Part shown: in pieces, positions 1-33,467 of the stretch
Numbering within the stretch: position 1 is the first letter of the stretch
Layout of the letters: every line of letters starts with the position of its first letter
DNA from: Thermoproteales archaeon
GTDB taxonomy: Archaea; Thermoproteota; Thermoprotei; Thermofilales; Thermofilaceae
NCBI GenBank assembly: GCA_021163245.1
Contig: JAGGXB010000115.1
Span: forward strand, 1 to 39,772
Length of the DNA: 39,772 nucleotides
Reading direction: 5' to 3'
Position numbers and translations under genes: made by a program
The notes under the pieces: model-generated
What the model saw: the letters and a program-made list of their open reading frames with translations, nothing else
Database searches by the model: none
Told to the model about the DNA's origin: nothing

Positions 1-3000
1 GTTAAGTTTACCCTAGAAAAACTTAATGAATTAAAAAAGGAAGGTGCACCAATAAGTATAGAAATACATAGCTTTAATACAACAATACCATATAACAATT
101 TTGCATATATTGAAATCAAGGGATTGAGCAAAAAAATCGATGCATATTCACTATATCCAAACTTGGTCGCTCTAGGTGGAACAGTAAACCTTACTGGAAA
201 ACTAATTTATGTCAAGGATGGAAGTTATCAATACATTAATGGAAAACCTATTGCTAATAATATCATTTTGATAGATTTTAATTCGGGGAAAAAATGGCTT
301 GACTTAGTCGCTCTTGGTGCCAAGGCAGTAATATTTATCGCTCCGGAGGATACTACAAGAATAGAGGCTGAGAAAAAAGTAACTTTATCTCCTTTAGATA
401 TCCCTCGACTATACGTGGATAAAGAAGCCGCGAAAATACTTGTTGAAGCAGCTAACAAAGGATTGACGGTAAGTGTAACTAACATATGTACCTGGAAACA
501 GGTAGAGGCATATAATATTATAGTTAAATACAATGGTACAGAAAACGTAGAAAATCCGATACTTATCACAGCTCATTTAGACACTATTTCCATCATACCC
601 AAACTTGCTCCAGGAGCAGAAGAGGCTATAAATCCATCTATCCTTTTATCATTTATCGAACAATTAAAGAAAAATAAACCAAAATACAGTATATGGTTTG
701 TCTTCTTCTCGGGTCACTGGCAGGGATTAAGTGGCCCTAGATATTTCGTAGAAGAATACATATTTCATAAGAACCTAAAGCCATATGTTGTGCTTAATCT
801 CGATTTATCTTCTTCTACTAGTCAGCTTGTAATTTATCCAGGTGGTTTATTTTATGGCCATAGAACACAAGGAGCACTCAATCTTTATAGGGATTTCAGA
901 ACTTCAGCACGAAGATGGATAAAAGAGTTCTATGATAAAGATAGGGAACTCTATCAGAAAATAAAGAGTGAGGCATATAACTATAATGCCACAACAGGCA
1001 TAATAACAGAAAAATCATTTGAAACAGGATATGCTATAAACCTGGCAAAAGATTTTATTCTAGATGCCGAACCATTTGGAATAGCTAAAATATTATCCGT
1101 CTCATACCTTACATACACAGATCTAAGATTAAAAACATTCACACCATTCGATACACCTGATAACATTAACTGGGAAAACATTAAGGCACAACTAAGCTTT
1201 GTAGCATTCTCTCTAAATCATATCCTTTCCGATATCAAATCTGTATATACAGGAAGTCTCGATTCATTAGGCCCAACACGTATTGAAGTCGACCCTATAA
1301 ACGGTGGTTTTGGATATGCCACTGTATCCGTCGAAGTCCTAGAATATAATCCAACCGTGCCAACATTATATGTTCCTGTACCAAAATCCCTAGTTGTAGT
1401 ACATAAAGTAACATGGTACTATAACACTGTAGGATCATTAGGAGTCACAACATACAACTTATTCTCATATATAGTTCAGTTAACCGACGACAAAGGCACC
1501 ACTAAGATAATAGGTATGGCTCCACAGGAAGTATTTATTGGTAATATAGAGGTTGTAGCCTACAAGGTTAACAATCAAGGAAGACTAATCTATGTACCAG
1601 ATATGGGCTCTAACGGTGCTGGAAAGTTTTCGTTTACACCACCACATCTAAAAGATGGAATTACAGTCAAAACTGTTGCCTTCAAAGCTGCTGGTCTACT
1701 CTTACCGTATCTAGCTATTCCAGACCAGCCGTGGGAACTTATAACCCTAAACATTTATAGAAAACCCTATTATGCTGTACCTTATACACATTATTCAAAT
1801 CCAGTACCAGTTTCAATTGATGCATTTTATGAAAACCTTGTAAGACCTGACTCTCACTCATATATCATAGATTACGAAAATAAGTTCGCTTTAGTTTTTG
1901 CACCGCCGAATAAAAATATTGAAGTGATGGGCACTCTTACAGGACTTGGTAGAAAAGCAATACTATTAATTAATTTAAAACCTGGAACAGAAGAAGGAAT
2001 AGGTTATAAACTAGGTGATATAGGTACCCTTAAAATAATACCTTTTGCCATACATCATTATGTCAGAGAATTATTTACTATAGCCGACTTAAGATATGAG
2101 AGAGCTATCAGTAGAGGTATTAGGGACTCAAGCATTGAACGTCTTATAAATCAATCAAAAATAGCTCTTACATTAGCTGATAAGTATTATAATGAAAAAA
2201 TCTATGACAAAGCATTGGTTCATACTTTTAGAGCATGGAGCTATACACTGGAACTTTATGAAAGAATGAGGACCATGTATGTCGACTTTACCAATGCTGT
2301 ACTGTTTATAATGTTGATTATTGCTCCTTTTGCAATAATAGCCGAAAAACTTGTAGGTCTAACAGGTGGCTTCAAGCGTCTTTTAATTATAGTTCTTGTC
2401 TCCCTCTCAGTATTCGCTATCTTCGCTATTCTTCACCCAGGCTTTTCAATAGTATACAGTATCTCCGCGTTGAGTCTCGGTGTAATTCTATTAATATTGT
2501 CTATTCCTACAGTCTTCTTCTTATTTCTAATATTTTCGAGAAGCCTCGGAAGAGTTAGAAAAGAGAGAGTTGGAGCACATTTCTTGGAAAGAGAAGCATT
2601 CGATTTGTTTGTTGCTGCAATGTCTATAGGCGTAGAAAATATGAAAAAGAGAGCTATACGTACTAGCCTAACACTTTTAACAATAATTCTAATCGTCATG
2701 TCTCTCGTATCTTTGACATCGGTGATTCCTGTTCCTAAGATTATAGAGGTTAATTATGCGTCTGCTTCAAAATATCCCGGTATACTTATTCAGTCCCAAT
2801 ACAATGAGCCTCTTGATATACGTATTGTCCAAGTTGTAAAGGAAATTGTTGGCGACAGAGGTTATATATCTGTTAGATATTGGTTGTATCCTCCTCTTAC
2901 AACTGAGAACTTTATATTAGGTGGAAAGAAGGGTACATACATAACGTTTAAGGCTGTAGTAGGTCTCTCAGCAGTAGAAATTAAGAAAGATTTCGCAAAT

Positions 3001-4323
3001 GTGTCACTTTACTTAGATCCCAACCTGGTTGATTTACCGAGTTCGTGTATATTACCAAAATCCATAGCTCAGTTGTTAGGTGTAAACGTTGGAGACACTG
3101 TTAGATTTAGCGGATATACATTAAATGTTGCTGGTATTTATGACGATTCACTTGCACTAAAAACTATTGGCGACATTGATGAGGAAACAGGTAAACCCAT
3201 ATATTTTGGACCAAGACCTTATGATGTTGTAAAAATGAATGATGAACAAAGATTTGATAAACTTTTCAGACTTTCATGGAGCGAAATTATCGTCATAAAC
3301 TCTGAATTTATGAAAAATATGCCAGGTGCATTTATACCTTCGATAAAAGTCATCCTGAAAGATAACTTAAATGAAACAACTGTCAGAACTATGGCTAGAG
3401 AAATATTCTCCACTTATAAGAAAATCGAAGTCTATGGAAGCTATAAAGGGAAAGGATTTCTCTTAAGCAGTAGATTTGTTCAAGAATTCTTTGGCTTCAG
3501 CTTTATAATAACACCAGTCATAATTGCTGGCTTAGTCCTTGCAACGACAATATTAAGCAACGTTCAGGAGAGAACAAAGGAAATCTCAATATATAGTTCT
3601 TTAGGTTTGGCACCACTTCACGTAGCTGGAATGTTCCTTGCCGAAACTTTAGCTTATGGTATACTGGGCTCAATAGTAGGTTATGTTGGAGGTATAATAA
3701 TGGCTAGAATATTCAACTTCGCTCTATTAACTGGAGGAATGATCGGAATGAATTATTCAAGCTCGTCAGTATTTGCTTCTATAGGCTTAGTATTTGCATT
3801 AATTCTCCTAGCCTCATTGTATCCATTCTTCCTAGTATCCAAGTTAGTTACTCCATCGCTTGAAAGAAGATGGAGAATCTCAACTAAACCCAGGGGAGAT
3901 CTTTGGGAAATTCCATTACCATTTACATTCAGAGAAGATCATCTTGTGGAGGGTTTAGCTATGTTCCTAAGCGAGTTTATGGAGACTCATAAAGTCGAAA
4001 GAGCTGGTGGATTCAGTACCATATCTTATCAAGTAGGTATCAAAAGAGGTGAATCAGCTATCATTAAAGGAAAAGTATGGTTGCCTCCATTTGAACAAAA
4101 CATAATCCAAGAATTCCAGATCATATTTAAGAAAAGCTTGACAGAAAACAAATATGTAACACAGCTACTAGTTAAAAGAGTAAGTGGCCCATATGATGCA
4201 TGGGTAACATCAGCCGAATCTTTTGCAAGAATAATACGTAAACAATTCCTTACATGGAGATTATTAACACCAGAAGACCGGAATAAGTATATTAAGGAAG
4301 CTGAAAAATTTATAGGTGTCTAA
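1..4323 (+). CDS. M28-peptidase-like ectodomain fused to FtsX/MacB-type permease (5' end missing)
   Basis: The reading frame is open from base 1, so the gene starts upstream; 1440 residues are visible and comparison with the full paralog at 27034-31593 suggests roughly 100 are missing. The order is a PA-like segment (about 240-420), an M28-like domain (about 520-1230), a carboxypeptidase-regulatory-like beta domain (about 1260-1700), a helical stretch, three or four membrane helices (2280-2560), a MacB-type helix and extracellular core (2640-3480), three further helices with an FtsX signature (ERTKEISIYSSLGLAP, near 3570) and a C-terminal domain of about 150 residues. In the M28 part the first His and Asp remain (AHLDT, His at 574), the bridging Asp is Glu (619), the catalytic Glu pair is Gly-His (712-717) and the last His is gone, so peptidase activity is unlikely. 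It runs directly into the OPT-like gene. No ABC ATPase is nearby. The fusion is clear; its role is unknown. Confidence 0.8.
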   Translation, partial: VKFTLEKLNELKKEGAPISIEIHSFNTTIPYNNFAYIEIKGLSKKIDAYSLYPNLVALGGTVNLTGKLIYVKDGSYQYINGKPIANNIILIDFNSGKKWLDLVALGAKAVIFIAPEDTTRIEAEKKVTLSPLDIPRLYVDKEAAKILVEAANKGLTVSVTNICTWKQVEAYNIIVKYNGTENVENPILITAHLDTISIIPKLAPGAEEAINPSILLSFIEQLKKNKPKYSIWFVFFSGHWQGLSGPRYFVEEYIFHKNLKPYVVLNLDLSSSTSQLVIYPGGLFYGHRTQGALNLYRDFRTSARRWIKEFYDKDRELYQKIKSEAYNYNATTGIITEKSFETGYAINLAKDFILDAEPFGIAKILSVSYLTYTDLRLKTFTPFDTPDNINWENIKAQLSFVAFSLNHILSDIKSVYTGSLDSLGPTRIEVDPINGGFGYATVSVEVLEYNPTVPTLYVPVPKSLVVVHKVTWYYNTVGSLGVTTYNLFSYIVQLTDDKGTTKIIGMAPQEVFIGNIEVVAYKVNNQGRLIYVPDMGSNGAGKFSFTPPHLKDGITVKTVAFKAAGLLLPYLAIPDQPWELITLNIYRKPYYAVPYTHYSNPVPVSIDAFYENLVRPDSHSYIIDYENKFALVFAPPNKNIEVMGTLTGLGRKAILLINLKPGTEEGIGYKLGDIGTLKIIPFAIHHYVRELFTIADLRYERAISRGIRDSSIERLINQSKIALTLADKYYNEKIYDKALVHTFRAWSYTLELYERMRTMYVDFTNAVLFIMLIIAPFAIIAEKLVGLTGGFKRLLIIVLVSLSVFAIFAILHPGFSIVYSISALSLGVILLILSIPTVFFLFLIFSRSLGRVRKERVGAHFLEREAFDLFVAAMSIGVENMKKRAIRTSLTLLTIILIVMSLVSLTSVIPVPKIIEVNYASASKYPGILIQSQYNEPLDIRIVQVVKEIVGDRGYISVRYWLYPPLTTENFILGGKKGTYITFKAVVGLSAVEIKKDFANVSLYLDPNLVDLPSSCILPKSIAQLLGVNVGDTVRFSGYTLNVAGIYDDSLALKTIGDIDEETGKPIYFGPRPYDVVKMNDEQRFDKLFRLSWSEIIVINSEFMKNMPGAFIPSIKVILKDNLNETTVRTMAREIFSTYKKIEVYGSYKGKGFLLSSRFVQEFFGFSFIITPVIIAGLVLATTILSNVQERTKEISIYSSLGLAPLHVAGMFLAETLAYGILGSIVGYVGGIIMARIFNFALLTGGMIGMNYSSSSVFASIGLVFALILLASLYPFFLVSKLVTPSLERRWRISTKPRGDLWEIPLPFTFREDHLVEGLAMFLSEFMETHKVERAGGFSTISYQVGIKRGESAIIKGKVWLPPFEQNIIQEFQIIFKKSLTENKYVTQLLVKRVSGPYDAWVTSAESFARIIRKQFLTWRLLTPEDRNKYIKEAEKFIGV

Positions 4324-4324
4324 T

Positions 4325-6229
4325 ATGAGCAAGATAGAAGAATTTAAAGAAGGTTTAACTCCTGTATCACTACTCGCCATAGTATACGCTGCCGTAGTAA
4401 TGACCCCAGTATTAATGTACATGTATCTTCTAACTGGTTTACCCAATGCAGCAAGATTTATCCCCGTTTTTGTCTCCTTACTCCTATTCACAGAAGTAGG
4501 AAGATTTGTAGGAAGATACATAACTACGCAGGAGGCATATATTATATACTTCATGACTGAGATAGTAGCGTTTGACGCACTTTATTGGATGGGATTAATA
4601 CAAGCTGTATATTATCAAAAAGCGCCTTATACAGAGCTCTTCGGTATAGCCTCAAAGATTCCATGGTGGGCAGCACCAAATATAAATTCATATGCCGTAC
4701 AATTCAGGACATTGTTCGCATGGGATTGGGTAATACCAATTTTTGTAACATTGATAGGAACAACTGGAGGTGTACTTATCGATATTGGTTTATCATTCAT
4801 ATTTGCACAGCTATTCATAGAACTGGAGAATCTACCTTTCCCAATAGCCCCGATAGATGCCCAAGCTATAAGTACATTAACTGAAAGAACCGCAAACAAG
4901 ATGGTTGTATTCTCATTCGCTGCAATAATAAGTTTCGTTTATGAAATAGTTCTTTATGGTCTACCAAGGCTTACAGAGGCTTTGATAGGAGTAACTATTC
5001 AATTTATACCTTACCCATGGGTTGACCTTACTGAATCCTTTGCATCTGTTTTACCCGGAGCACTCATAGGTATAGCTACCGATATATCTTCTTTTGCGGT
5101 AGGATGGGTTATACCATGGGACAGTGTCATATGGTTACTAATAGGATCAGTAGGCTTCTATATTGTCGGAAATACACTTGCCATACAGTTAGCAGACATA
5201 ACTAAGATACCAATGTTCTTGAAATGGAAAGCCGATTGGTCACCTGTAGCAAAAATAGACTGGCTATGGCAGAGATCAATATATGATCTATGGGCAAGTC
5301 CACAAATAGGACTATCTATTGGTGTGGGTCTATTTTCCTTCATCATATCTGCCAAATATATTCGTTCAGCCATAAACAGTCTAAGCCATATGACCGCTAT
5401 AACCAGAGAAAAAGGCTATATCAATCTTAAATGGGTTCTATTAATGATTATAGTTGGTTCTGCAATGGGTATAATGGTCGATATCTGGCTTTATCCACAG
5501 TTATGGTTTGTATGGATATTCTTATGGACAGTCATGCCATTTCTACAAGGTATTCTACTAGGACGAAGCTATGGAGAGGTAGGTTTAGGAGTTCAGATAC
5601 CCTATGTCAGAGAAGCATTTCTTATATCATTTACTCCTCCAGGAGATGTTTATCCATGGATGGTTCCTGCTAAAGTCTCGACAGCCGCAGGCATAATCAC
5701 ACATAGATTAAAAGTTGCTATGCTTACAAAGACAAAGCCAATAGATTACTTTAAGGCTTATGCTCTTACATTACCACTCGTTTTACTACTAAGCTTTATA
5801 TATTTACAAGTATTTTGGAGCATAGCACCAATGCCATCAGCATTTTATCCATGGACAGCTATTACTTGGCCAATAATGTCACTTAACTTCTCATTATGGG
5901 TTTCACGTTCAATTGAAATCTTCAAACCTGAATTAATATTAGGCGTCGCAGCCATAGTGTTATCTGTTTCATTATTAGCTAGAAAATTCAAAATACCGTT
6001 CTCTCCAATTGGTTTTGCAGCTGGCGCAGCTGTTGTACCACCCTTCGCTTTTAACTATTTCCTAGGCGCACTTGTAGGAAAATTAATAATAAGAAAATAT
6101 GGTAAAGAAGCATGGGAACAAAACAGATCTGTCATTATTGCCGGGTTATTCTGTGGAATAGGATTAGCATTAGCTCTCTCAGTAGCTATTGCGATCGTCA
6201 CGAGATCGATTTGGACAACTCCTTACTAA
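4325..6229 (+). CDS. OPT/DUF6785-like polytopic membrane transporter
   Basis: This 634-residue protein is almost wholly hydrophobic, with perhaps 14-16 membrane helices. It resembles the DUF6785/DUF6784 proteins and more distantly the oligopeptide transporter (OPT) superfamily: an N-terminal EGLTP motif, a central LENLPFPIAPIDAQ segment, an aromatic loop ending in a DLWASPQ motif, and a C-terminal small-residue-rich helix pair. It is collinear with the product of 31593-33467. I chose ATG 4325 over the in-frame GTG at 4316 because the GTG lies in a GGTG Shine-Dalgarno-like stretch and the paralog starts just before the same EGLTP motif. It begins one base after the stop of the M28-like/FtsX gene, so the two are surely co-transcribed. 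The substrate cannot be read from sequence; peptides, metal chelates or oligosaccharides are possible. Confidence 0.75.
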   Translation: MSKIEEFKEGLTPVSLLAIVYAAVVMTPVLMYMYLLTGLPNAARFIPVFVSLLLFTEVGRFVGRYITTQEAYIIYFMTEIVAFDALYWMGLIQAVYYQKAPYTELFGIASKIPWWAAPNINSYAVQFRTLFAWDWVIPIFVTLIGTTGGVLIDIGLSFIFAQLFIELENLPFPIAPIDAQAISTLTERTANKMVVFSFAAIISFVYEIVLYGLPRLTEALIGVTIQFIPYPWVDLTESFASVLPGALIGIATDISSFAVGWVIPWDSVIWLLIGSVGFYIVGNTLAIQLADITKIPMFLKWKADWSPVAKIDWLWQRSIYDLWASPQIGLSIGVGLFSFIISAKYIRSAINSLSHMTAITREKGYINLKWVLLMIIVGSAMGIMVDIWLYPQLWFVWIFLWTVMPFLQGILLGRSYGEVGLGVQIPYVREAFLISFTPPGDVYPWMVPAKVSTAAGIITHRLKVAMLTKTKPIDYFKAYALTLPLVLLLSFIYLQVFWSIAPMPSAFYPWTAITWPIMSLNFSLWVSRSIEIFKPELILGVAAIVLSVSLLARKFKIPFSPIGFAAGAAVVPPFAFNYFLGALVGKLIIRKYGKEAWEQNRSVIIAGLFCGIGLALALSVAIAIVTRSIWTTPY

Positions 6230-6233
6230 AACA

Positions 6234-6257
6234 TTTTTCTTTTTATTTTAATTTTTT
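6234..6257 (+). terminator. T-rich archaeal terminator
   Basis: Three runs of four to six T lie directly after the stop of the OPT-like gene at 6229, as in intrinsic archaeal termination. The tract overlaps the 3' end of the convergent DUF89 gene. No stable hairpin is visible. Confidence 0.5.
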
Positions 6258-7118: not shown

Positions 7119-7142
7119 AAGAATCGACAATAACAGTTGAGC

Positions 7143-7157
7143 ATAATATAAATACTT
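7143..7157 (-). promoter_or_regulatory. TATA-like element of the DUF89 gene
   Basis: The reverse strand here reads AAGTATTTATATTAT. Its centre lies about 30 bases before ATG 7118, which fits a nearly leaderless transcript and argues against the TTG start at 7130. The same 101-base gap must also hold the promoter of the divergent radical SAM gene. Confidence 0.4.
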
Positions 7158-7219
7158 AACTTTTCTAGCATTAAACGAATTATATAGTATTATGATTATT
7201 ATTAATAATATAGTGATGA

Positions 7220-8359: not shown

Positions 8360-8402
8360 TGAGTCTAGTCTTCTTAAGAAGTGTTTCTAATTGGTGAAGA
8401 TG

Positions 8403-11561: not shown

Positions 11562-11578
11562 TAGCTATTTTTTAGCAA

Positions 11579-21470: not shown

Positions 21471-21515
21471 AATGAATTAAAATTTTTCCTTTTTATATTG
21501 ATTCGGGTCTCTGAT

Positions 21516-24059
21516 ATGAGAGAGAAAAATTTTATTGTTAAAAAAAGATGGTCTTTCTCTGGTTATTTTAGAGGCGAATGGATTGAAAAATCTTGGTTTT
21601 GGGCAAATTTTGCAGGTCTATTGGATTTTTCTCTTCCAGATATATCCTTTGAAATTGAAAAGCTTGAAAACACATGTTTTAAGAAAATAGGACTTGGAAC
21701 AATATTTGTTCAACCAGGAATTTTTTCAGAACTTGTCTCTTTGGGTAATTTGATTGAGTTAAAGTTTCCTGAAAAAATAGAAGAGATTCCTAAAGAAGAA
21801 AATAATCTTCTAGTAATGTGTACAAAAGACTCTAATATATACAAATTTTTAAAGCGAGACAAGAAGAGTGGGTTGGAATATGATAATGAAATACATATTT
21901 CATATTTTGAAAATAAGAAAATATTTGTTTTAGCATCAAGTAGTAAAGAAAATGCTCTTAAACTATACTCTCTTGTTAAAAACACAATCGATCTATTGAA
22001 GAAATATAAAATTGTTAAAGGTTGGCCTTTCTATAATACTAACTATTATATGATATCTCAAAGAGTAGAGAATCCAATAGTCTCTCTATCAAAGGCTATA
22101 AACCAAGGCTGTAGCTGGATGTTTCTCATCGGACCATATGAAAACCTAACAGTTAAAGAGCTTAACAAATGGATAAAAAATGTTGGATTAGATTTTGTGG
22201 TTACTTCGGGTCAGGTTTCTAATGATGGAAAGGTTTTGATGTTAGATATGGAAGATTATCCAAGTTTCCAAGGTTGTAATTATAAAGTTGCTTATCAATG
22301 GTATAAAACGCATAATGGGTATCTTTTTGTCAGATTTTCTGCCTATGATGTTCTTGACGACATACCTGAAAATTCGTTTGACGGCTATATATTTGAGAAA
22401 GGAAATAGTCAATATTTAAAGGAAGTAGATAAACCTTTCCTAGTTTTTGAGCATTTCTTTGATTTTGAAAAAGTGCCAGCATCTATGTTTGTTCTAATTC
22501 CTAAAGACACAGCTTTAAATATCGAAACATTGATGAAATCCATATTAGGAAAAAAATGTATAGGTGTTTTTCCTCCAAACTATCTTGTTGGTCCTGAAGA
22601 GCTCTTAAAAGTTTTTTCTATTCTATTTCTTGAAAAAGACTATCTGTTAAGGAATTTCAGAAAAAATATATTGTTTGAAACTCACATTGAAGGAAATCAA
22701 CTTAAAATAGAAATAATTAATACGACAGACTCAGAAATCGATGGACATCTAATAATCCATGCACCCAATTGCATATCTATTGAAAAGAATAAAATCTTCA
22801 TGCAACTAGCTTCTCGAGGTAAAACATCCCTGAGAATACCATTTAAGGTTATTGGTACAATTGAGGGAAATATAGCACCGATCTTTCTTGTCTTCAAAAA
22901 CGATAAAGAAAGTTATTATGATATCACGTATATTAGTATACCCGATATTGTTTCCGTGCCACAGATGCTGTTTAGGTATTCTAACAACATTATAATTCCT
23001 GTAACAATATTTAACTTATCAGATAAAGAAAACATATATGTAAACTTAATTGTTAACAAAGATGATAAAACTATTCTAGATAAGAATCTTAACCTTCTTA
23101 TAAAACCGGGAGATATAAGTAATATAGATTTAACTCTCCAATTAGAACCTGGAGAATATGATGTTTCTATAAAATTTCTAGACAAAGAAGCAAAGTGTAA
23201 GCTATTAGTAAATGAGCCAAAGGGAAACGTTATATGGTATAAATCGGATTATGATAAAGACGGCCTTGAAGAAATAATTCTAGAAAATGAAAAAGTTAGA
23301 ATAATCGTCCTGCCTTGGGAAGGAAGAATAATTAGATTCTCATTAAAAGATAGAGATCAAGATGTGCTATTTAAGATATGGCCTAAAAGACCCTTAAATT
23401 GGAGAGACGCTAACCGCAGATCCGAGTATTGGCCATATGGTGGTTTAGAAGAATTTATAAATTATCCAACTGTGGGTTGTCATGTTCCTTTTGATCTAAA
23501 AATATTAAACGCATCCCAAAATAGTGTAACAGTTGAGGCTTCAGCTGTGATTCATGGTAACAAAATTGTGAAAAATATAACTCTATTTGGCGACCTGCCT
23601 TTAGTTGAAGTAATATATAAGATTATTGCAAAGAATCCTGAACTTAACGTTTTAGGCGTTAACCCGTTGATACGGATAGGAGGTAGCTGTGATCAAAATC
23701 ATATATTCATATTTCCAACGGAGAAAGGTTATGAAAAAAGAAGATATTTGAAAAATAGAATGTATGGAGAATTCTTTGATTTAAAGGAAGGATGGGTAGC
23801 TGGATACGATGAAGAAGAAAATATAACTCTTGTTACATTATTCCCTCCGGATGTCCCATATGTAACGCATCTTTGGATGAATACTCCACTTAACAGAGCA
23901 TCCCATCACTATTATGTTGAGATTCAACCTTGGGTTAAAATCAAGGAAAATAACCCCTTATATTTCTCTTACTACATGTATGCTGAATCAGGCTTTTGGA
24001 AAGAAACAGTCGAGAAACTTAGGAAAATTAATTTAATAAGAGAAAAGAATAAACAATAA
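21516..24059 (+). CDS. Large multidomain protein with mutarotase-like C-terminal domain
   Basis: I cannot assign this 847-residue protein to a characterised family. The N-terminal third (about 1-170) is alpha/beta, followed by a region that may be a TIM-barrel-like fold (about 175-370). Two Ig/CARDB-like beta sandwiches come next (about 390-570; for example a segment ending in LEPGEYDVSIKFLDKEAK). The last 270 residues resemble the supersandwich of galactose-mutarotase and DUF5107-type proteins, with VRIIVLPWEGRIIRF, YWPYGGLEEF and NPLIRIGG. This is the build of a carbohydrate-active protein without a proven active site. No signal peptide is seen. The open frame begins at TTG 21498; I chose ATG 21516. 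It lies between the GATase1-like gene and a 229-residue unknown, in one probable operon. Confidence 0.6.
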   Translation: MREKNFIVKKRWSFSGYFRGEWIEKSWFWANFAGLLDFSLPDISFEIEKLENTCFKKIGLGTIFVQPGIFSELVSLGNLIELKFPEKIEEIPKEENNLLVMCTKDSNIYKFLKRDKKSGLEYDNEIHISYFENKKIFVLASSSKENALKLYSLVKNTIDLLKKYKIVKGWPFYNTNYYMISQRVENPIVSLSKAINQGCSWMFLIGPYENLTVKELNKWIKNVGLDFVVTSGQVSNDGKVLMLDMEDYPSFQGCNYKVAYQWYKTHNGYLFVRFSAYDVLDDIPENSFDGYIFEKGNSQYLKEVDKPFLVFEHFFDFEKVPASMFVLIPKDTALNIETLMKSILGKKCIGVFPPNYLVGPEELLKVFSILFLEKDYLLRNFRKNILFETHIEGNQLKIEIINTTDSEIDGHLIIHAPNCISIEKNKIFMQLASRGKTSLRIPFKVIGTIEGNIAPIFLVFKNDKESYYDITYISIPDIVSVPQMLFRYSNNIIIPVTIFNLSDKENIYVNLIVNKDDKTILDKNLNLLIKPGDISNIDLTLQLEPGEYDVSIKFLDKEAKCKLLVNEPKGNVIWYKSDYDKDGLEEIILENEKVRIIVLPWEGRIIRFSLKDRDQDVLFKIWPKRPLNWRDANRRSEYWPYGGLEEFINYPTVGCHVPFDLKILNASQNSVTVEASAVIHGNKIVKNITLFGDLPLVEVIYKIIAKNPELNVLGVNPLIRIGGSCDQNHIFIFPTEKGYEKRRYLKNRMYGEFFDLKEGWVAGYDEEENITLVTLFPPDVPYVTHLWMNTPLNRASHHYYVEIQPWVKIKENNPLYFSYYMYAESGFWKETVEKLRKINLIREKNKQ

Positions 24060-24066
24060 AGATAAC

Positions 24067-24756
24067 ATGTATCAAGCAGAGGACTTAGATATAATCTATA
24101 AAATTTTAAAAAATAAAATCAATATCCTAGATAAGAATAAAGAGCGCGGAACTTTAATTATCCGCCCATCTAATTCTCCATTTGAAAACATATATATTTC
24201 GTTTAAACCTATTCCTTTAAGTCTTGAAAAACTAACTGTCTTTTTCGGAGAGATACCCATTGGAGAAATAGGTACTGACACATCTGTAATTTATAAAGAG
24301 TTGAAATCTCTAGAATGTGAAATCGATTACAAAGGCTTTTTAGGAAGAAAAGTATTGTTTATATCTCGAAAAGAATTAGTTAATCTGAAGGATAAACTTA
24401 AAGGATTAAAGATAAGAAAAGATCTTACCAGCTTTTTAAATTCAGATAAAGACCTCTTAAAAGAGATTAAAAAGTTAAAGATACATAGACTTGAAATTAA
24501 GTTAAATGTTGGAGCAGATGTAGACAGTAGTTTAACCGAAGATATTAAAGATGATATAGAAAAAATTAGTCAACTGTACGAGATTTCTTCGTTTTATAAC
24601 CCACCAGAGGATATTTACTGGAACGTAATTATAGAGGCATATTTAGTAAGAGGAATTCTTTATCCAAAAAAGGTCGCAACCACGTACCAAATCCTAGAAA
24701 ATATAGGCTATAAGTTAATTAACTTTACTCCCCTTTTTTTAAACAGAATTAGTTAA
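24067..24756 (+). CDS. Hypothetical protein (229 aa)
   Basis: I do not recognise this protein. It is soluble, Lys- and Ile-rich and probably alpha/beta, with a charged helical middle (LVNLKDKLKGLKIRKDL, about 103-120) and a C-terminal segment predicted as helices. It starts seven bases after the stop of the mutarotase-like gene, so it is almost surely in the same operon and may act with it. Confidence 0.6.
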   Translation: MYQAEDLDIIYKILKNKINILDKNKERGTLIIRPSNSPFENIYISFKPIPLSLEKLTVFFGEIPIGEIGTDTSVIYKELKSLECEIDYKGFLGRKVLFISRKELVNLKDKLKGLKIRKDLTSFLNSDKDLLKEIKKLKIHRLEIKLNVGADVDSSLTEDIKDDIEKISQLYEISSFYNPPEDIYWNVIIEAYLVRGILYPKKVATTYQILENIGYKLINFTPLFLNRIS

Positions 24757-24944: not shown

Positions 24945-26978
24945 ATGAGCCAAGGAAAACAACCAAGTGAGTGGGTGCCTGGCTTTACTTCTCGCTCCGT
25001 TCTAATAACTCTTGTCTTGATCGTCTTTATTGGTTTATTGCAGACACATTGGTATAATTATACCAATATAGCTGTTCACTACAATCCCTGGCCCGAAGAG
25101 GGCACCTGTGGAAGCTTACATGAACCTATAGGTATGTTATTTCTTGTAATATTACTTCTTACCGTAATTTACAAGAAGGTTAATTTAACTATACAGGAAT
25201 TAGCTGTTATATTTTCAGGTATTGCGCTTGCAAGTATGCCATTTGCACCTATGGGTGCAATGGTAACGATGCAGTATGTTTTTGGTACATTAAGACCTGA
25301 CTACATAAAGAACATTCAATTTTTCCTACCTCACCCATGGTTCCCGCCAGCCGAAACATATATTCCCTTCTATGAATCTGGACCCGTTCCATGGGATAAA
25401 ATTGGCGGGGCTTTCTCTATATGGGTGTTAACATTCCTTATATGGTCATTATTACAATTCTTCCTATCACTAGGATTTATAAGACAGGTAGTTCATGCTG
25501 AAATGTTACCCTTCCCATATGCTACACCCGCACTACACCTATTTAGAATTACTGAAGAAAAGAAAAATATTCTAAACTTTAAGGATCTAACTCTAAAAAG
25601 AGTCTGGATAGGTTTCTTAATTGGATTTATCTTCTATGTACATTTCGTCCCTGTATTGTTCTGGAAGGATTTTCCTGCTTTATGGGGACCATATCTAGCC
25701 TATGGTAGAAGAAAAATCTTTGGCTGGCTACACTTCTATCCTGCAACTAAAACAGCTATTCCATGGTTCCCGAACAACTGGGAGATATACCCTGAACTAG
25801 TTGCAGCCACTTTATTCATACCCTTAGATATGTTAGCCACAGCCTCGATATGGTGGCTATGGGTTAACCTTATATCTCCACCTATCTTGGTTGGTCTTGG
25901 TTTAAGAAAACCATGGCCTGCTGGTGGTTATAGTGGATGGTGGAGTGCCTCTTGGGATAACTGGATGCAGCATCCAGGCAAACTAGGTCTAACATTCCAG
26001 TCCGCGATATGGGCTCTAGCCTTCTGGGAACTAATATTCAACTTTAAACCCGTATGGCAAACAATTAAAGGTATTTGGAGTCCCCCATCAGATGAATCAG
26101 AGAAGGAACCGATACCTTGTAAAATGATCTGGGGATCTGTAATAGTACTAATTATATTGTCAGCAATGATCTATTCTTACATTGGTATTCCTTTAGCATA
26201 CTTCTTTGTAATACTGTTACCTTGGGCATTCCTATATTGGTATGGTGGAATAAGGCTTCATGCAGAAGTCGGTCCTGTCCAATACTGGAGAGGAGGAGGA
26301 GAAGGAAGAGACTTCCTGATATATCTTGGTGGACAAATGGGTATTCTACAGCCTAACACAAAGGAAGCATATATGGCAGTCGAACTGAGTAGAGAACTGA
26401 CGTTTGGATACATTTCTAGTGTACAATGGGGAGCACTTTCAATGACTGGCTACTATATAGCAGCAAATACGAAGACTAATCCTAAAGACATATTTAAGAT
26501 GCAGATTATAACTATACCTTTGGTTATAGTCTTATACTTCTTACTCGAAGTCTGGTCATTATTCTCGCTAGGCTTTGGAAAAGGATGGAAAGCAGCACCA
26601 TACTGGGTACATGGTTGGAGTAATGGAGACGCAAGCAGAGCTACAGATCTTGCATCAGGATGGGCTCAGAATGTACCATATTTAGCTGGAAGCTTTGTAT
26701 TATTCGGTATCTTAGTAGCTTTACGTAGATTCCTCCCATGGTGGCCTGTTCATCCATGGGGTATAGCATTACCTGGTCTATATCTCGGAATTAAGCTTGA
26801 TAGCACTTTATTCGTAGCATTCGTAATAAAGAGCCTTATATTAAAAATAGGTGGATCCAGACTATTTGAAAAGTCTGTACCTGTTCTAGTTGGAGTCATT
26901 GCTGGAAGTACAGCAGGAAGAATAATATTAGAGTTAGTTGGAGCCGCCTTCGGACTACCAAGACCTTATCTTGCATAA
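24945..26978 (+). CDS. OPT/DUF6785-like polytopic membrane transporter (677 aa)
   Basis: The longest of the three related transporters in the window. It has many membrane helices and the clearest DUF6785/DUF6784 signs: LPHPWFPPAETYIPFYESG with PVPWDKIGG after the first helices, HAEMLPFPYATPAL (the family's conserved acidic-Leu-Pro-Phe-Pro segment), and GGIRLHAEVGPVQYWRGGGEG in the C-terminal part. Trp is unusually frequent. It is more distant from the two shorter paralogs than they are from each other. It has its own leaderless-type promoter and is followed 55 bases later by the full-length M28-like/FtsX gene, so it may head the operon that runs to 33467. Substrate unknown; peptides, glycans or metal complexes are candidates by family analogy. 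Confidence 0.75.
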   Translation: MSQGKQPSEWVPGFTSRSVLITLVLIVFIGLLQTHWYNYTNIAVHYNPWPEEGTCGSLHEPIGMLFLVILLLTVIYKKVNLTIQELAVIFSGIALASMPFAPMGAMVTMQYVFGTLRPDYIKNIQFFLPHPWFPPAETYIPFYESGPVPWDKIGGAFSIWVLTFLIWSLLQFFLSLGFIRQVVHAEMLPFPYATPALHLFRITEEKKNILNFKDLTLKRVWIGFLIGFIFYVHFVPVLFWKDFPALWGPYLAYGRRKIFGWLHFYPATKTAIPWFPNNWEIYPELVAATLFIPLDMLATASIWWLWVNLISPPILVGLGLRKPWPAGGYSGWWSASWDNWMQHPGKLGLTFQSAIWALAFWELIFNFKPVWQTIKGIWSPPSDESEKEPIPCKMIWGSVIVLIILSAMIYSYIGIPLAYFFVILLPWAFLYWYGGIRLHAEVGPVQYWRGGGEGRDFLIYLGGQMGILQPNTKEAYMAVELSRELTFGYISSVQWGALSMTGYYIAANTKTNPKDIFKMQIITIPLVIVLYFLLEVWSLFSLGFGKGWKAAPYWVHGWSNGDASRATDLASGWAQNVPYLAGSFVLFGILVALRRFLPWWPVHPWGIALPGLYLGIKLDSTLFVAFVIKSLILKIGGSRLFEKSVPVLVGVIAGSTAGRIILELVGAAFGLPRPYLA

Positions 26979-27033
26979 ATAAAATAAATATTTATTTTTT
27001 TAATTTATTTTATGTAAATAAAGGTGTAAATAT

Positions 27034-30000
27034 ATGTATAGGAATAGAAAGTATCTATTCGTAGTTATACTAACCCTGGTTTTATTATCTCCTGTTCTTA
27101 TAAATAATACTTATTCTACTCCCATGATTAAAAGTGTAGATGATATGGATATCATTATCCCAAGACTTTTGTCAAAGATAAACTATACAAAAGTTGAAAG
27201 CCATGTAAAGTATTTTACCAGCCTTGGATCACGTATGACTGGATACCCAGGTGTATGGAAAGCAGCTGAATATATCTATAAAGAGTTCTCTAAATATGGT
27301 CTAAAAACATACTATGATAATTTTAGTGTAGTTATTCCATATGATTATGGAGCTACTTTAACTCTTGATAGTGGAGAAACTATCAAAATTTATCCATTAT
27401 GGCCCAACATAGTTTGTCCACCTTCAACTCCCGGCATATCTGGAAGAATAGTTTATATCGGTGCAGGAAGCCTAAAAGAAATAAAGGGAGTGAACTTAAA
27501 TAACACCATCGTTCTCATCGATTTTAATAGCAAATTTGATTGGGTTAGAACTTTAGGTTTAGGAGCTAAAGCCGTAATATTCATCGAACCAAAATTCACT
27601 ACACGAACCGAAACTGAGCTAAAGAAGGTACCTATGGCAATAAACTTACCCAGATATTATATCAAAGCCTCAGATGCCTCAAAACTTTTAACTTTAATAG
27701 AGAAAAACGAGAAAGTTTTCGGGACAATAAAGGCTAGAATGGTTTGGGAGAAAAAATGGTCTCCTAACATAGTCGGTGTACTTCAAGGTGAAACAGATGA
27801 GATAATACAAATATGGGCTTACTTTGATTCTTATTCAATAGTTCCATCATTAGCGCCTGGTGTCGACGAAGCATCAGGCATTGCTAGCTTACTTGAAATA
27901 GCAAGGATTTTATCAAAGGAAAAACCCCAAAGAACAATAATGTTTGTTGCAATGTCTGGTCATTTTGTTTCCTTGTCAGGAGCAAGAGAATTTATAGAAA
28001 AATATTTCTTTGGAGAGAAAAAGGAGATAGGCGACAAAACAGTACTCATACTCGGTCTCGACTTATCTACTGATGTAAACACTATGGCTTTATATGCCGG
28101 TGTTTCGTTCTGGGCAGGAAAAACATTCTATAGCTTAGCAACTAAAGATATTGATCCTTTCAGAAAACTATCATATCTCTTATTCCAAAACGGCAACCCT
28201 ATATCTGCCAACTCTATACCTGGTCTCGACATATCTGATCTATTGAATTTACAAAATATCATTGGAGACGAAAGTTTACTCTACCATATGATGAAGTCTA
28301 CAAAGAGAATATATTATGCGGGAGACGGTATAGGTTTTGATTACAGATCAGGTACATTTAGCAATAATATAGCGATGGTTCCTACACTGTATATTGATAC
28401 TGAGGCAGCAGCTATGGCCGGAAAATTAGCTGTGTCATTCTCTACCAGCAGAACAAGAAGGATGCATTGGAATACTCCAACTGAAACTCTAGATGATTTC
28501 GATATTAACAATCTAAAACCACAATTAGAATTCATTCTATGCTCTGTTTACTTACTGGCAAACTTGGAAAACTTAGAAGATTATGGAATTAAAAATCTGC
28601 AAGCTACACGCTTCGACACTGGAAGATATGTTGGATTTTTAACCATTGAAGGAACCGTCGTAACATACGATACAATGGAAGGAAGATATATTCCTGTACC
28701 AAACGCTTTAGTTTATGTAACTTCATATCGTCTAAACAATTATGAATTTGTGACCATAACTGATGAAGATGGTAACTTTGTAATCCATGGCGGTAGAAAC
28801 TCTTTAGAACCAGTAACAGGCGGTCCTCCACATATATTCGAAGCATTCAAAATTAACGAGACTACAGGAAACGTAATTTATTCAGAAGACTATGGTGTAC
28901 ATGGATCCACATTTTATACATTTAACGTAGTGTTTACAGGAGAAGTAGGAAGAGTAACACTATGTATATTTAAATCTTCTACAATCGCCTTATTCGATCT
29001 AGTTGATCCTGAAAGCCTAGAATCATTAACATTCGATATAAAGGTTTTAGATTCCCGAAGCCATTCAGAACCATTACAATATGGTAAAGCTGATTTATTG
29101 ATGTCTTATATTCTTAATAGATGGAGCTATAGGTCCTCTCTTGGAGACCCAGTAGGTCCTTGGCCTATCCCAGTAACAGCTGTTTTTGTACCCGAAAACA
29201 TACCGGTAGAATTGCTTATTTATGCTGGGCCAAATCTGGTTGGATTCTTAACCAATAAGACCCATGGCTATACACTGAAGCAAGGAGAGTTATTAAAACT
29301 ATATGTACCTTACGATGTTTTAAGAGATGTACATTCCATTGACACATCGAGATTAGACAGGTTACATAGTTCATATGTTTTCTCAGGAGGTCTTGTTGCT
29401 GAAGAACATCATGATGAAGCAAGTAAACTGCTTAATGAGTCCATAATATTGATGAAAAACGGTAAATATGATCTAGCATACGCTCGAATTGTAAAAGCAT
29501 GGACCCGTGAATTAAGAGCTTATGTAGAGACCAGATCACTCTTCTATGATACAGTATTTGTAGCAATATTCTACACAAGCATTCTTCTCTTATTTGTTCC
29601 AATAGTTGAAAGCGTATTCATCGCAGCCCGTGGACTTAGAAAAATAATAAGCATAGCTAGTCTAGCAATTGTTTTTACGATCATAGTTTATTTCGTACAT
29701 CCAGGCTATACACTTGCAGCAAACATATTCTTAATTCTGTTGGGATTATCAGTTATTTACCTTCTAGGTCTCACATTTTTGGTTATAATGAATGAAACAA
29801 GAGAATTTACCAAAGAAATAAGAGAAAGGTTTGTCGGAGTACATGAAGTAGCGAAAAGCAAATTTGACGCATTTATGCTGGCATTTTCATTCGGTATTGG
29901 ATATATGAAAAAGAGAAAAATCAGAGCTGTCTTAACAGCAATTTCTATCATAATTACAGTATTTTCGCTTGTTATGCTTTCATCAGCCTACAGCTATACA

Positions 30001-31593
30001 TCAGTTATACCTGCTCCCACTGAAAAGACTGTTAAGCCATTATATAATGGCTTGTTAGTTCATGCTTTAGTGGATCCATCAACACACACAATATATACCC
30101 TATCTGTCAACTTAATAGATTACCTGAAATATAATTTTCCAGATGCGTTAATTTCACCAAGAACTTATTGGCGACCTGGTTTTGCACAAGACTCATTATT
30201 AAGAATTAAGGGACCAAATGGTACTGCTTCAGTAATAGCGGTTATGGGCATGTCACCTCTAGAAGAAAATATTACTAAGATATGGTCTAAATCTGGATTA
30301 TACGGTAGATGGTTTATTAAAGGAGATAGAAAAGTCTGTATTATCACAAAAGACATAGCTAAAGATGGTGGTTTCCAGTTAGGTGACCATATACAATTAC
30401 TCGGAGGTATGTCATATATGATTATTGGAGTATTGGATGGAGAAGTCATGTATGATATTGAAGATCTTAACGGAGAGCCTATAACACCTTTTGATTATAA
30501 CTTACTCGCCTTAAATCCCAACGTCCCAGGATTTCCACGTCTAAAACATAGCTTCATAATAATTCCCTATGAAGATTCACTTGAAATAGGAGCAGCCATA
30601 ATCAATACAATAGTTGTACCTAAAAATATGACAGCCGAACAATTAGAAAAGACTGGAATCGATATATCGTTCACAACCGGCAAAGACGTATACGTTGGAG
30701 TAGGAGATTCTGTAAGATTATACAGAAGAAGCCAAGCCATAAATGTCCAGGGATGGTCAAACGTAATAGTGCCATTAGCTATAGCAATATTAGTTATGTT
30801 AGACACCATGCTTGGAAACGTGTATGAGAGAACCAGAGAATTTTCAATACTTGGAACTCTCGGCTTATCTCCGATGGAAGTCGCAGCCCTTCTATTTGGT
30901 GAATCACTTGTTTATGCTATCCTAGGAGGCTTCCTTGGATATTTAACAGCTATGATATTCTTGAAAACGTTGATATTCACTAATACACTGCCTTTAGGCA
31001 TTCCGTTAAACTATTCTTCATGGTTCGTAATAGTCGTTATATTGGCTTCCATGGGTATAACAATGGCATCTACCCTATACCCAGCACTTAGAGTACATAG
31101 ATCAATCACTCCCTCGCTAGCCAGAAAATGGAAGATACCTAAACCTAGAGGCGATGAATGGGAAATACGCACACCATTTGGTGCAATGGAAAGAGAAATA
31201 TGGGGAGCATTAGCTTATCTAAAAGAATACTTTGAGACTCAGGGACAAGAAAGAGCTGGTCCATTCATGTTGATCGGAGACATTACTTTCAGTGAAAGCA
31301 TGACAGAAGGCAGAAAAATTAAGACTATTACAACTAAAGTATCGCTGCCTCCACATGAACAGGGTGTTACTCAAGAAGTTTCGATTAGAGGAACATGGGA
31401 TCCATCGAGGTCATTGTACATGTTTACGATTTATCTAAGGCATCTGACTGGTAGTTATGATCTTTGGGTTAGGCTAAATTATCCGTTTATAGATTCCCTT
31501 AGGAAACAATTATTAATATGGAGAGGCTTACAACCTAATCTTAAAAATAAATATATTGAGAAAGGTTTGGAGGAATTTGGTGGTGAGAAATAA
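27034..31593 (+). CDS. M28-peptidase-like ectodomain fused to FtsX/MacB-type permease (full length)
   Basis: The 1519-residue protein has a signal or anchor helix (about 7-27), a PA-like segment (157-186), an M28-like domain (about 245-510), a carboxypeptidase-regulatory-like beta domain (about 530-600), a helical repeat region, several membrane helices (about 830-925), a MacB-type helix at about 961-990 with a core domain, three FtsX helices with YERTREFSILGTLGLSP, and a C-terminal domain that shares PSLxRxWxIxxKPRGD with the copy at 1-4323. M28 ligands: first His is Tyr263, Asp265 and Asp278 remain, the catalytic Glu pair is Gly309-His310, Asp343 and the last His478 (MHWNTPTETL) remain. Peptidase activity is therefore doubtful. 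A GGTG site seven bases before ATG 27034 supports the start. Its stop shares a base with the next ATG. Confidence 0.85.
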   Translation: MYRNRKYLFVVILTLVLLSPVLINNTYSTPMIKSVDDMDIIIPRLLSKINYTKVESHVKYFTSLGSRMTGYPGVWKAAEYIYKEFSKYGLKTYYDNFSVVIPYDYGATLTLDSGETIKIYPLWPNIVCPPSTPGISGRIVYIGAGSLKEIKGVNLNNTIVLIDFNSKFDWVRTLGLGAKAVIFIEPKFTTRTETELKKVPMAINLPRYYIKASDASKLLTLIEKNEKVFGTIKARMVWEKKWSPNIVGVLQGETDEIIQIWAYFDSYSIVPSLAPGVDEASGIASLLEIARILSKEKPQRTIMFVAMSGHFVSLSGAREFIEKYFFGEKKEIGDKTVLILGLDLSTDVNTMALYAGVSFWAGKTFYSLATKDIDPFRKLSYLLFQNGNPISANSIPGLDISDLLNLQNIIGDESLLYHMMKSTKRIYYAGDGIGFDYRSGTFSNNIAMVPTLYIDTEAAAMAGKLAVSFSTSRTRRMHWNTPTETLDDFDINNLKPQLEFILCSVYLLANLENLEDYGIKNLQATRFDTGRYVGFLTIEGTVVTYDTMEGRYIPVPNALVYVTSYRLNNYEFVTITDEDGNFVIHGGRNSLEPVTGGPPHIFEAFKINETTGNVIYSEDYGVHGSTFYTFNVVFTGEVGRVTLCIFKSSTIALFDLVDPESLESLTFDIKVLDSRSHSEPLQYGKADLLMSYILNRWSYRSSLGDPVGPWPIPVTAVFVPENIPVELLIYAGPNLVGFLTNKTHGYTLKQGELLKLYVPYDVLRDVHSIDTSRLDRLHSSYVFSGGLVAEEHHDEASKLLNESIILMKNGKYDLAYARIVKAWTRELRAYVETRSLFYDTVFVAIFYTSILLLFVPIVESVFIAARGLRKIISIASLAIVFTIIVYFVHPGYTLAANIFLILLGLSVIYLLGLTFLVIMNETREFTKEIRERFVGVHEVAKSKFDAFMLAFSFGIGYMKKRKIRAVLTAISIIITVFSLVMLSSAYSYTSVIPAPTEKTVKPLYNGLLVHALVDPSTHTIYTLSVNLIDYLKYNFPDALISPRTYWRPGFAQDSLLRIKGPNGTASVIAVMGMSPLEENITKIWSKSGLYGRWFIKGDRKVCIITKDIAKDGGFQLGDHIQLLGGMSYMIIGVLDGEVMYDIEDLNGEPITPFDYNLLALNPNVPGFPRLKHSFIIIPYEDSLEIGAAIINTIVVPKNMTAEQLEKTGIDISFTTGKDVYVGVGDSVRLYRRSQAINVQGWSNVIVPLAIAILVMLDTMLGNVYERTREFSILGTLGLSPMEVAALLFGESLVYAILGGFLGYLTAMIFLKTLIFTNTLPLGIPLNYSSWFVIVVILASMGITMASTLYPALRVHRSITPSLARKWKIPKPRGDEWEIRTPFGAMEREIWGALAYLKEYFETQGQERAGPFMLIGDITFSESMTEGRKIKTITTKVSLPPHEQGVTQEVSIRGTWDPSRSLYMFTIYLRHLTGSYDLWVRLNYPFIDSLRKQLLIWRGLQPNLKNKYIEKGLEEFGGEK

Positions 31594-33467
31594 TGAGATA
31601 TAAAGAAGGTTTAACACCAAGGTCGTTCCTAGCAATAATTTACGGTGCATTTATCCTACAACCAATAATAATATTCACTTTGTTATATGCTGGAGCATCC
31701 ATTATAGGAGCAGTACAATACCTAGTAATTCTTGTTTTTACCGAGATTGCTCGATTATATGGTAGTAGATTGACTAAACAAGAAGTATTTATAGCATTTT
31801 ATGGTCTAGGAGCAGCGGCAAGCGGAGGTGTCTTTATTTCTCTTCTCTTCAAAGGCTATTTAAGAACAAGTAGCATAACGCGCGCATTTGGAATAGCTGA
31901 TAAATTACCAGTATGGGTTGCTCCTCCTTCAAGCTCAGAGGTATACTTTATTAGAACGCTGTTTCATCCCGACTGGCTCCCAGCATTAAGTATCTTACTT
32001 TTAGGAATGCTCTTCTTTATTATAGCTGATCTAGGAATAGGTATGCTTGTCGCCCAAATGTATGTTGAAGTCGAGAAATTACCCTTCCCATTGGCACAGG
32101 TAAGTGCACAAGCTATAATTACATTGACAGAAAGACCGGCTGAAAGATTAAGAATTTTTGTCTTCTCTATCATCATAGGAATGATCTATGGAGTATTACT
32201 TTATGCAATACCAATAGTAGGCGGTATCCAGGCGATACCTTATCCATGGGCTGATGCCAATGAATTTTTGGAAACAAAGCTTGGACTCTATGGTGCATCT
32301 TTTGGTGTTGCAACTGATTTAGTGTTTTTTGCAACAGGTTTTGTGATACCGTTTACTGTAGCCGTGAGTCAGTTTATTGGAGCAATGACTGTATGGTTTA
32401 TTGGAAATATGGTTATATTGAAAATGGGTTTATGGCCTAGCTGGCTCCCTGGAATGAAAATACAGCTTGCTGCACTCAGGTCAGCTCTCGACTTTTGGGC
32501 ATCTCCCACACTTGGCTTAATAGTTGCTGCAGCTGTAATGCCTTTAATCCTTCATCCTCGTTATCTTTCATCCAGTATAAAGTCTCTTTCAAAACTAACA
32601 GGTAGTTCAAGAGAAGCTGGATTTTTGCCATTATGGATATTATTAGCTCTTTATATTGTAGGAAGCTTTGGTAGCGTTGGTTTAACATTATATCTTGTGC
32701 CAGGATTTATGCCCTATTGGTGGACTTTGATTCTCTTAGGACCAATATGGTCTTTTATATATATCCTTGTATCAGCTAGAAGTATAGGCGAAACGGGTTA
32801 TCAGTTACCAGTACCTTATTTCAGAGAAGGTTTACTTGTTTTTGTTCCCTATAAAGGAGTAGATATATGGTTTGCTCCTATTTATACACCGACAGTTATC
32901 GGAGGTATATCCAGTGTCTCTGGTCAAGGATGGGCTTCAACCGTTAAGATAGCTGAACTAACCGAAACAAAGATATCGAGTGTATTAAAGACATGGATTA
33001 TTGCCACAGCATTAGCCATTGTAATGAGTTACATCTATACATCGGCTTTCTGGATGCTTGCTCCAGTTCCTTCCTCTTACTATCCTGCAACCATAATTAA
33101 CTGGCCTATCTCCGCAATGTATACTGGCTTATGGGTTTCCAAAAAACTTGTAATTTTCAGGCCAACCACATTAGTAAGCGGCTTTATAATCGGCTCCATA
33201 TTATTTGCAATTCAGGATCTTCTACATCTTCCGTTTTCATATGTTGGATTTGTAATAGGAGCGGCAAACTTTATTCCTATAAGCGTATCTACATTTATAG
33301 GAGCATTAATTGATAGAACACTACTCGTAAAGATATTTGGAAAAGAAAAATGGAGAAATCTAAAAAGCGTTGCAGTAGCTGGACTGCTAAGCGGCGAAGG
33401 TATCATACTTGGCTTTTCAGCAATATGGATGATCATAACAAAATCTGCATGGATTCTACCATATTAA
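31593..33467 (+). CDS. OPT/DUF6785-like polytopic membrane transporter (624 aa)
   Basis: Paralog of the transporter at 4325-6229, with the same KEGLTPRSFLAI start, VEKLPFPLAQVSAQAIITLTER segment, a DFWASPTLG loop and matching C-terminal helices. It has about 14-16 membrane segments and no soluble domain. The ATG overlaps the stop of the M28-like/FtsX gene as TAATG, with GGTGAG five bases ahead, so translation is coupled and near-equal amounts of both proteins are expected. A T-rich tract follows its stop. Substrate unknown. Confidence 0.75.
   Translation: MRYKEGLTPRSFLAIIYGAFILQPIIIFTLLYAGASIIGAVQYLVILVFTEIARLYGSRLTKQEVFIAFYGLGAAASGGVFISLLFKGYLRTSSITRAFGIADKLPVWVAPPSSSEVYFIRTLFHPDWLPALSILLLGMLFFIIADLGIGMLVAQMYVEVEKLPFPLAQVSAQAIITLTERPAERLRIFVFSIIIGMIYGVLLYAIPIVGGIQAIPYPWADANEFLETKLGLYGASFGVATDLVFFATGFVIPFTVAVSQFIGAMTVWFIGNMVILKMGLWPSWLPGMKIQLAALRSALDFWASPTLGLIVAAAVMPLILHPRYLSSSIKSLSKLTGSSREAGFLPLWILLALYIVGSFGSVGLTLYLVPGFMPYWWTLILLGPIWSFIYILVSARSIGETGYQLPVPYFREGLLVFVPYKGVDIWFAPIYTPTVIGGISSVSGQGWASTVKIAELTETKISSVLKTWIIATALAIVMSYIYTSAFWMLAPVPSSYYPATIINWPISAMYTGLWVSKKLVIFRPTTLVSGFIIGSILFAIQDLLHLPFSYVGFVIGAANFIPISVSTFIGALIDRTLLVKIFGKEKWRNLKSVAVAGLLSGEGIILGFSAIWMIITKSAWILPY

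Follow-up and report, generated by a model that had tools for sequence, protein, structure and literature searches.

Giant M28/FtsX proteins linked to OPT-type transporters in archaea and bacteria, and a candidate type VII ABC motor that may be common to them

A gene module repeated on one archaeal contig

We analyzed a 39,772-nt stretch of DNA (referred to as the window), which is the entire contig C35 of a Thermoproteales archaeon assembly (genome G000; 1.95 Mb in 148 contigs, 93% complete). The window carries two copies of a module in which a giant protein with an M28-like domain and an FtsX permease adjoins a transporter, designated OPT-B; a second type of transporter, designated OPT-A, precedes the giant in copy 2. 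The genes of the two copies are as follows.

1..4323, + strand: giant M28-like/FtsX protein, copy 1; the 5' end is lost at the contig end and 1440 residues remain; FtsX and M28 Pfam matches
4316..6229, + strand: OPT-B, copy 1 (P0003); starts at ATG 4325 or GTG 4316; PF03169, E = 1.6e-4
24945..26978, + strand: OPT-A (P0005), DUF6785/DUF6784 family by Pfam, at the head of copy 2
27034..31593, + strand: giant M28-like/FtsX protein, copy 2; 1519 residues
31593..33467, + strand: OPT-B, copy 2 (P0004); its ATG overlaps the stop codon of the giant by one base

An earlier note, made from the sequence of the window, had placed two giant/transporter pairs here, and both the coordinates and the Pfam domains agree with it. 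The E values in the two giants were 1e-13 and 3e-14 for FtsX and 9e-12 for Peptidase_M28, and copy 2 also matched MacB_PCD (8e-8). The described coupling by one gap base in copy 1 is true if OPT-B starts at ATG 4325; the shared base in copy 2 and the third transporter at its head (OPT-A, by its DUF6784 match) were likewise found. Pfam scans of the other main open reading frames of the window detected no ABC_tran domain, in keeping with the statement that the window encodes no ATP-binding cassette (ABC) ATPase.

The two types of transporter are homologous over their whole length (profile-profile E = 1e-35). P0005 matches PF20580 (DUF6784) with 51 bits (1.8e-13), and among 15 OPT-A relatives, 13 matched PF20581 (DUF6785) and 13 matched PF20580. 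Against the OPT family (PF03169), P0003 gave a weak match of 20.9 bits, below the cut-off of 25.8, and P0004 gave none; five of 17 members of the OPT-B family matched, the best of them with an E value of 2.4e-11. A sequence search with OPT-B against solved structures returned no match.

A search of the genome with OPT-B recovered exactly four genes, each adjoining a giant: two in the window, one on contig C36, and one on contig C67. Both copies that the earlier note had seen are real, and its count of two was too small for the genome. The gene order is OPT-A, giant, OPT-B on C36, and OPT-A, OPT-B, giant on C67, where a 991-residue FtsX protein without M28 follows. OPT-A is present in each copy whose relevant flank is sequenced; the module is thus OPT-A plus an M28/FtsX giant of ~1500 residues plus OPT-B. 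Within the genome the giants are 30-33% identical to each other (30% for copies 1 and 2) and the OPT-B proteins 28-36% (36% for copies 1 and 2). Since they are only 28-36% identical, the copies are old paralogues and not recent duplicates. This divergence, together with four complete or near-complete modules on three contigs, rules out a recent duplication or an assembly artefact.

Directly 5' of the copy-2 OPT-A, at 21498-24756 of the window, lie two genes (853 and 229 residues) with no Pfam match. These and a GATase1_like gene are on the same strand and could be part of the operon of the module.

Linkage of the giant and OPT-B in archaea and bacteria

To survey the family, bacterial and archaeal genome contigs were scanned, giving 147 relatives of the giant, of which 80 loci were kept. 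The archaeal hosts belong to Bathyarchaeota, Brockarchaeota, Thermoprotei, and Thermofilaceae, and the bacterial hosts to Armatimonadota, Latescibacterota, Planctomycetota, Zixibacteria, Gemmatimonadota, Poribacteria, and Omnitrophota; members occur in no fewer than 10 archaeal families and in many bacterial phyla. Thirty giants from the 80 loci were flanked on either side by 3 kb or more of sequence, and 27 of them had OPT-B no more than 3 kb away.

A second survey covered 121 genomes drawn evenly from the phylum of the window. No more than four candidate giants were scored in each genome, so that the numbers of giants are lower bounds. OPT-B was found within 3 kb of 43 of the 55 listed giants, as opposed to approximately one expected by chance, and in 33 of these 43 pairs the two genes shared a strand and were separated by no more than 150 bp. 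An M28-giant was present in every one of the 23 OPT-B genomes, and OPT-B occurred in 23 of the 24 giant genomes, the exception being 70% complete. The linkage of the giant and OPT-B is beyond chance. The earlier note had named a lack of conserved adjacency in related genomes as the outcome that would speak against its pairing of giant and transporter; adjacency was conserved in both archaea and bacteria.

BceB and similar FtsX-type proteins also act as sensors together with transporters, and the giants could in principle be transport-independent sensors or surface-layer proteins, with the OPT linkage due to co-regulation only. The tight translational pairing (gaps of -4 to 150 bp) over two domains of life and the matching patterns of loss make this reading distinctly improbable.

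One Poribacteria giant is ~2500 residues long (L082:8882-16378) and is followed by two tandem OPT-B genes; an added domain may explain its size.

Anatomy of the giant

The copy-2 giant was divided into the following parts.

27121..29538, + strand: extracytoplasmic part, residues 30-835; M28 fold with a PA-type insert, beta domains, and a helical stalk
27955..27966, + strand: SGHF motif, residues 308-311, at the place of the M28 catalytic Glu-Glu pair in an alignment of 71 giants
29536..31095, + strand: membrane half; extra helices (residues ~835-920), then the FtsX core up to PF02687, with a MacB-type domain between its helices 1 and 2
31156..31590, + strand: C-terminal cytoplasmic domain, residues 1375-1519; conserved in the family, with a confident model

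An AlphaFold2 model of the ectodomain (residues 30-835) had a mean predicted local distance difference test (pLDDT) score of 87.6. Its Foldseek matches, with E values of 1e-25 to 1e-19, were M28 aminopeptidases (2.5e-25 to one of them), transferrin receptor 1, and glutamate carboxypeptidase II (GCPII).

The M28 fold, and the fact that OPT proteins are known as oligopeptide transporters, would suit a peptidase-transporter pair in which the transporter takes in the products of peptides cleaved outside the cell by the M28 domain. The residues make such a pair highly improbable. Neither Glu of the catalytic pair is kept in any of the 71 giants; a conserved S-G-H stands in their place, with His at the first of the two positions in 63 of 71. 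As for the zinc ligands, the first-ligand HxD motif keeps its His in 18 of 71 giants and its Asp in all 71, and the last aligned His is kept in one of 71. Because the Glu-Glu pair is absent from every giant aligned, we reject an active M28 peptidase, and the domain is, on its residues, a conserved pseudo-peptidase. The earlier suggestion that the giant recognizes the substrate fits this apparent loss of catalysis throughout the family.

The membrane half (residues 800-1519) was modeled with a mean pLDDT of 86. Its Foldseek matches included MacB, LolC/LolE, HrtB, YbbP, and FtsX, the top ones all being type VII permeases. Hydropathy places approximately three additional helices before the FtsX core. 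The invariant E-R..G..P..E segment, known from the cytoplasmic loops of FtsX, is retained in the FtsX halves of the giants. The C-terminal domain has a weakly START-like predicted fold, with Foldseek matches to START/PR-10 proteins only, at E values of 0.009-0.1.

A mini-FtsX and its ATPase as candidate motor

In the operons of Armatimonadota and Planctomycetota, OPT-B is followed by genes for a 300-residue protein, a PqqD-like protein, a mini-FtsX, and an ABC ATPase. The mini-FtsX is ~210 residues long and lacks the MacB domain; the ATPase has ~250 residues and is of the LolD/MacB type.

In the genome of the window, genes for a mini-FtsX (223 residues) and an ATPase (250 residues) lie side by side on contig C34 (L106:8589-9999). 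They are unlinked to the modules: the ~8.6 kb ahead of them and the 8 kb behind contain no module genes. Sequence identity of the C34 ATPase is 82-85% with the mini-FtsX-adjacent ATPases of other archaea and 61-71% with the ATPases of the bacterial giant operons. It is only 47-52% with the two remaining MacB-type ATPases encoded in the genome of the window; these belong to the FtsX loci on C100 and C121, which were considered as alternative partners and rejected as ordinary MacB-type permeases with ATPases of their own. Closer linkage occurs in other archaea: in a Bathyarchaeota locus (L045), an ATPase gene is directly upstream of OPT-A and the giant, and in the single-contig genome G044 a mini-FtsX and two such ATPases lie within ~14 kb of a giant, OPT-A, and OPT-B.

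With the operon-borne mini-FtsX and ATPase in bacteria and the orthologous pair on C34, we reject the absence of any ATPase partner for the giants. The earlier note had envisaged a two-component machine, and the same genes run counter to such a machine lacking an ATPase; its proposed check for an ABC ATPase gene elsewhere in the same genomes was answered by the C34 pair.

Several further observations concern these genes. The 300-residue protein, which has no Pfam match, is conserved between OPT-B and mini-FtsX in bacterial operons, usually together with the PqqD-like protein:

L031:16613-18005: 300-residue protein; equivalents in L032, L049, L051, L071, L082, L083, L086, and L101

In G044, two ATPases of the same orthologous group, with 75% and 69% identity to the one on C34, stand in tandem after mini-FtsX (L155:1334-2832); a heterodimeric motor is possible. 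The genome of the window also encodes more long FtsX proteins, of ~900-1080 residues, for which the genome search gave no M28 match:

L109:5325-11211: contig C15
L110:6536-12786: contig C101
L009:4384-7356: contig C67
L010:10450-13188: contig C90

On C15 and C101, each of them adjoins another long open reading frame. The candidate motor on C34 may serve these proteins as well. Family f29 (G078, G092, G110, and G116) has a long FtsX protein ~3 kb from mini-FtsX.

Co-occurrence of the candidate motor and the giants

At a threshold of >100 bits, mini-FtsX was detected in 26 of the 121 genomes of the phylum sample: in 22 of the 24 with M28-giants and in four of the 97 others. Three of these four (G016, G024, and G062) have long FtsX proteins without M28. 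Counted by family, mini-FtsX occurred in 10 of 10 giant families versus two of 26 others (p = 3e-7). The same pattern was seen within families. A giant and mini-FtsX are both present in G000 and both absent from G072 and G111 of its family; the same contrast holds between G044, which has the two, and G002, G101, and G107, which lack them. DUF6785 was found in 25 genomes, 24 of them with mini-FtsX, and was not found in 14 control genomes. Among 27 further giant genomes, mostly bacterial, 23 hold one mini-FtsX of >160 bits. The matches listed comprise one mini-FtsX per genome, compared with up to at least four giants, ten OPT-B, and 39 DUF6785 candidates.

These data bear on whether the giant could gate or feed the transporter without an ATPase, its FtsX half being a structural relic. 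The giant and OPT-B are the tightest-linked pair, the ATPase is unlinked in the genome of the window, and a few giant genomes have no detected mini-FtsX, all of which such a machine would accommodate. Mini-FtsX and its ATPase nevertheless co-occur with giants across phyla and are operon-linked to them in bacteria and in one archaeon, and the FtsX loop residues are invariant, unlike what a relic would keep. G051, a 96% complete genome that keeps a giant and has no mini-FtsX, holds OPT-B only as a fragment with four stop codons (C53:24772-25272), possibly through joint decay of the system. A relic FtsX half is improbable in light of these observations.

Genes around the modules

The gene families near the modules were compared with those elsewhere in the same genomes. 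In the phylum sample, 118 module neighbors included eight GFO_IDH_MocA oxidoreductases, five MFS/sugar transporters, three GH42, three CBM4_9, and two GH3; the top list of 125 background genes consisted of housekeeping families and contained none of those sugar families. The excess of GFO_IDH_MocA near modules had a p value of 0.017, taking one in the background. In the window, copy 2 adjoins the following gene:

34320..35762, - strand: alpha-L-arabinofuranosidase (PF06964, 2.5e-34)

The gene after the C36 module presumably encodes a GH127-type enzyme, and we take the genes upstream to be a sugar kinase and an isomerase, by resemblance only. Because of the sugar genes around the modules, a carbohydrate substrate is favored, without proof; the ligand is probably a sugar, an oligosaccharide, or a glycoconjugate.

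Handling of lipids or glycolipids would give the genes another meaning. The ABC complex would then extract a membrane-anchored molecule, as LolCDE and YbbAP-TesA do, and the OPT-type proteins would be flippases or exporters, with no import of food. Extraction of membrane molecules is typical of type VII systems (PMC12646458), the FtsX half of the giant resembles LolC/LolE and YbbP, and START, which its C-terminal domain weakly recalls, is a lipid-binding fold. That likeness is itself weak, however, and the many paralogous modules per genome and the nearby catabolic sugar genes look like nutrient uptake. We consider lipid handling unlikely.

A proposed receptor-permease driven by a common motor

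The reading that we propose, as the one that explains the data most economically, is that a type VII (MacB/LolCDE-like) ABC motor is common to several receptor giants, which feed captured ligand to OPT-type transporters. It builds on the observed gene linkage, co-occurrence, single motor copy, and loss of catalytic residues, and on predicted folds; we regard it as about evenly balanced between right and wrong. In a type VII (MacB/LolCDE/FtsEX-like) ABC complex, the giant would be the permease half that captures the ligand, and mini-FtsX, with the four-helix core only, would be the other half of a putative heterodimer. The LolD/MacB-type ATPase encoded beside mini-FtsX would act as the motor, one pair per genome serving several giants. 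The dead M28 ectodomain would be a receptor, as in the transferrin receptor, and would bind an extracellular ligand, the class of which we infer to be the carbohydrates named above. ATP-driven movement of the ectodomain would release the ligand to the neighboring OPT-B and OPT-A, or open them, through a presumed contact and handover; the transporters would then carry the ligand inward.

Several points weigh against this proposal. Three of the 30 well-covered giants have no OPT-B nearby, and the giants of family f29 do not adjoin OPT-B. Mini-FtsX was not found in four of the 27 further giant genomes nor in G051 of the phylum sample; some giants may have another working mode, or these assemblies may be incomplete. 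The carbohydrate link comes from modest counts, of which the GFO_IDH_MocA excess is one, and the neighbors of copy 1 are housekeeping genes. We know of no precedent for coupling of a type VII system to a secondary transporter. In addition, type VII systems typically pass no substrate across the membrane (PMC12646458).

Taken together, the data suggest a previously undescribed nutrient-uptake machine common to archaea and bacteria. A bolder version, which we advance as possible though on balance doubtful, is a new class of importer: one genome-wide mechanotransmission motor would power many interchangeable receptor-permease giants, each feeding dedicated OPT-type transporters. In its logic, such a system would parallel TonB-dependent uptake, in archaea as well as in bacteria, and it would be the first case of a type VII ABC system connected with transport across the cytoplasmic membrane.

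Relation to known systems

A type VII ABC complex comprises two permease halves and two ATPases. In such systems, ATP drives movement outside the cytoplasm, and a partner protein usually determines the function (PMC12646458). The candidate complex resembles MacAB-TolC, LolCDE, FtsEX-EnvC, YbbAP-TesA, and BceAB in its FtsX-type permease with a MacB-like extracytoplasmic domain between helices 1 and 2, in its LolD/MacB-type ATPase (by genomic association), and in having a partner that would define function (PMC12646458). It differs in that one permease half bears a dead M28 ectodomain of ~800 residues, the other half is a 210-residue core without a periplasmic domain, and one motor appears to serve several giants that are linked to OPT-type secondary transporters. 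Unlike in MacAB-TolC, no MacA-type adaptor or TolC was found in Pfam scans of the window and of selected bacterial operon neighbors.

Like transferrin receptor/GCPII (M28B) and M28 aminopeptidases, the ectodomain has an M28 fold with a PA insert and is attached to a membrane anchor. The transferrin receptor has lost its catalytic site, and its M28 domain serves as a receptor. The giants differ in their fusion to an FtsX permease and in the SGH motif that replaces the EE pair. By analogy, one energy module per genome with many substrate receptors recalls TonB-ExbBD with its many receptors, or the MsiK-type shared ATPases; there is no homology, and both the motor and the membrane differ.

OPT proteins are known as stand-alone proton-coupled symporters. 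The module transporters are related to them in that OPT-A has DUF6785/DUF6784 and some OPT-B match OPT; they differ in coming in two types and in their linkage to an FtsX giant. Within the literature searched, with most subscription journals and preprints outside it, there was no description of M28-FtsX fusions with OPT-type partners or of OPT in these lineages, and no paper mentioning DUF6785 or DUF6784. The parts belong to known superfamilies; to our knowledge, the combination appears new.

If the proposal is true, it would provide a function for DUF6785/DUF6784 and the linked prokaryotic OPT relatives. It would also extend type VII ABC mechanics to uptake via a secondary transporter, in a design of one motor and many receptors. 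Finally, it would explain possible uptake of complex substrates in Bathyarchaeia, Brockarchaeota, Armatimonadota, Latescibacterota, Planctomycetota, and Poribacteria, all of them poorly known lineages.

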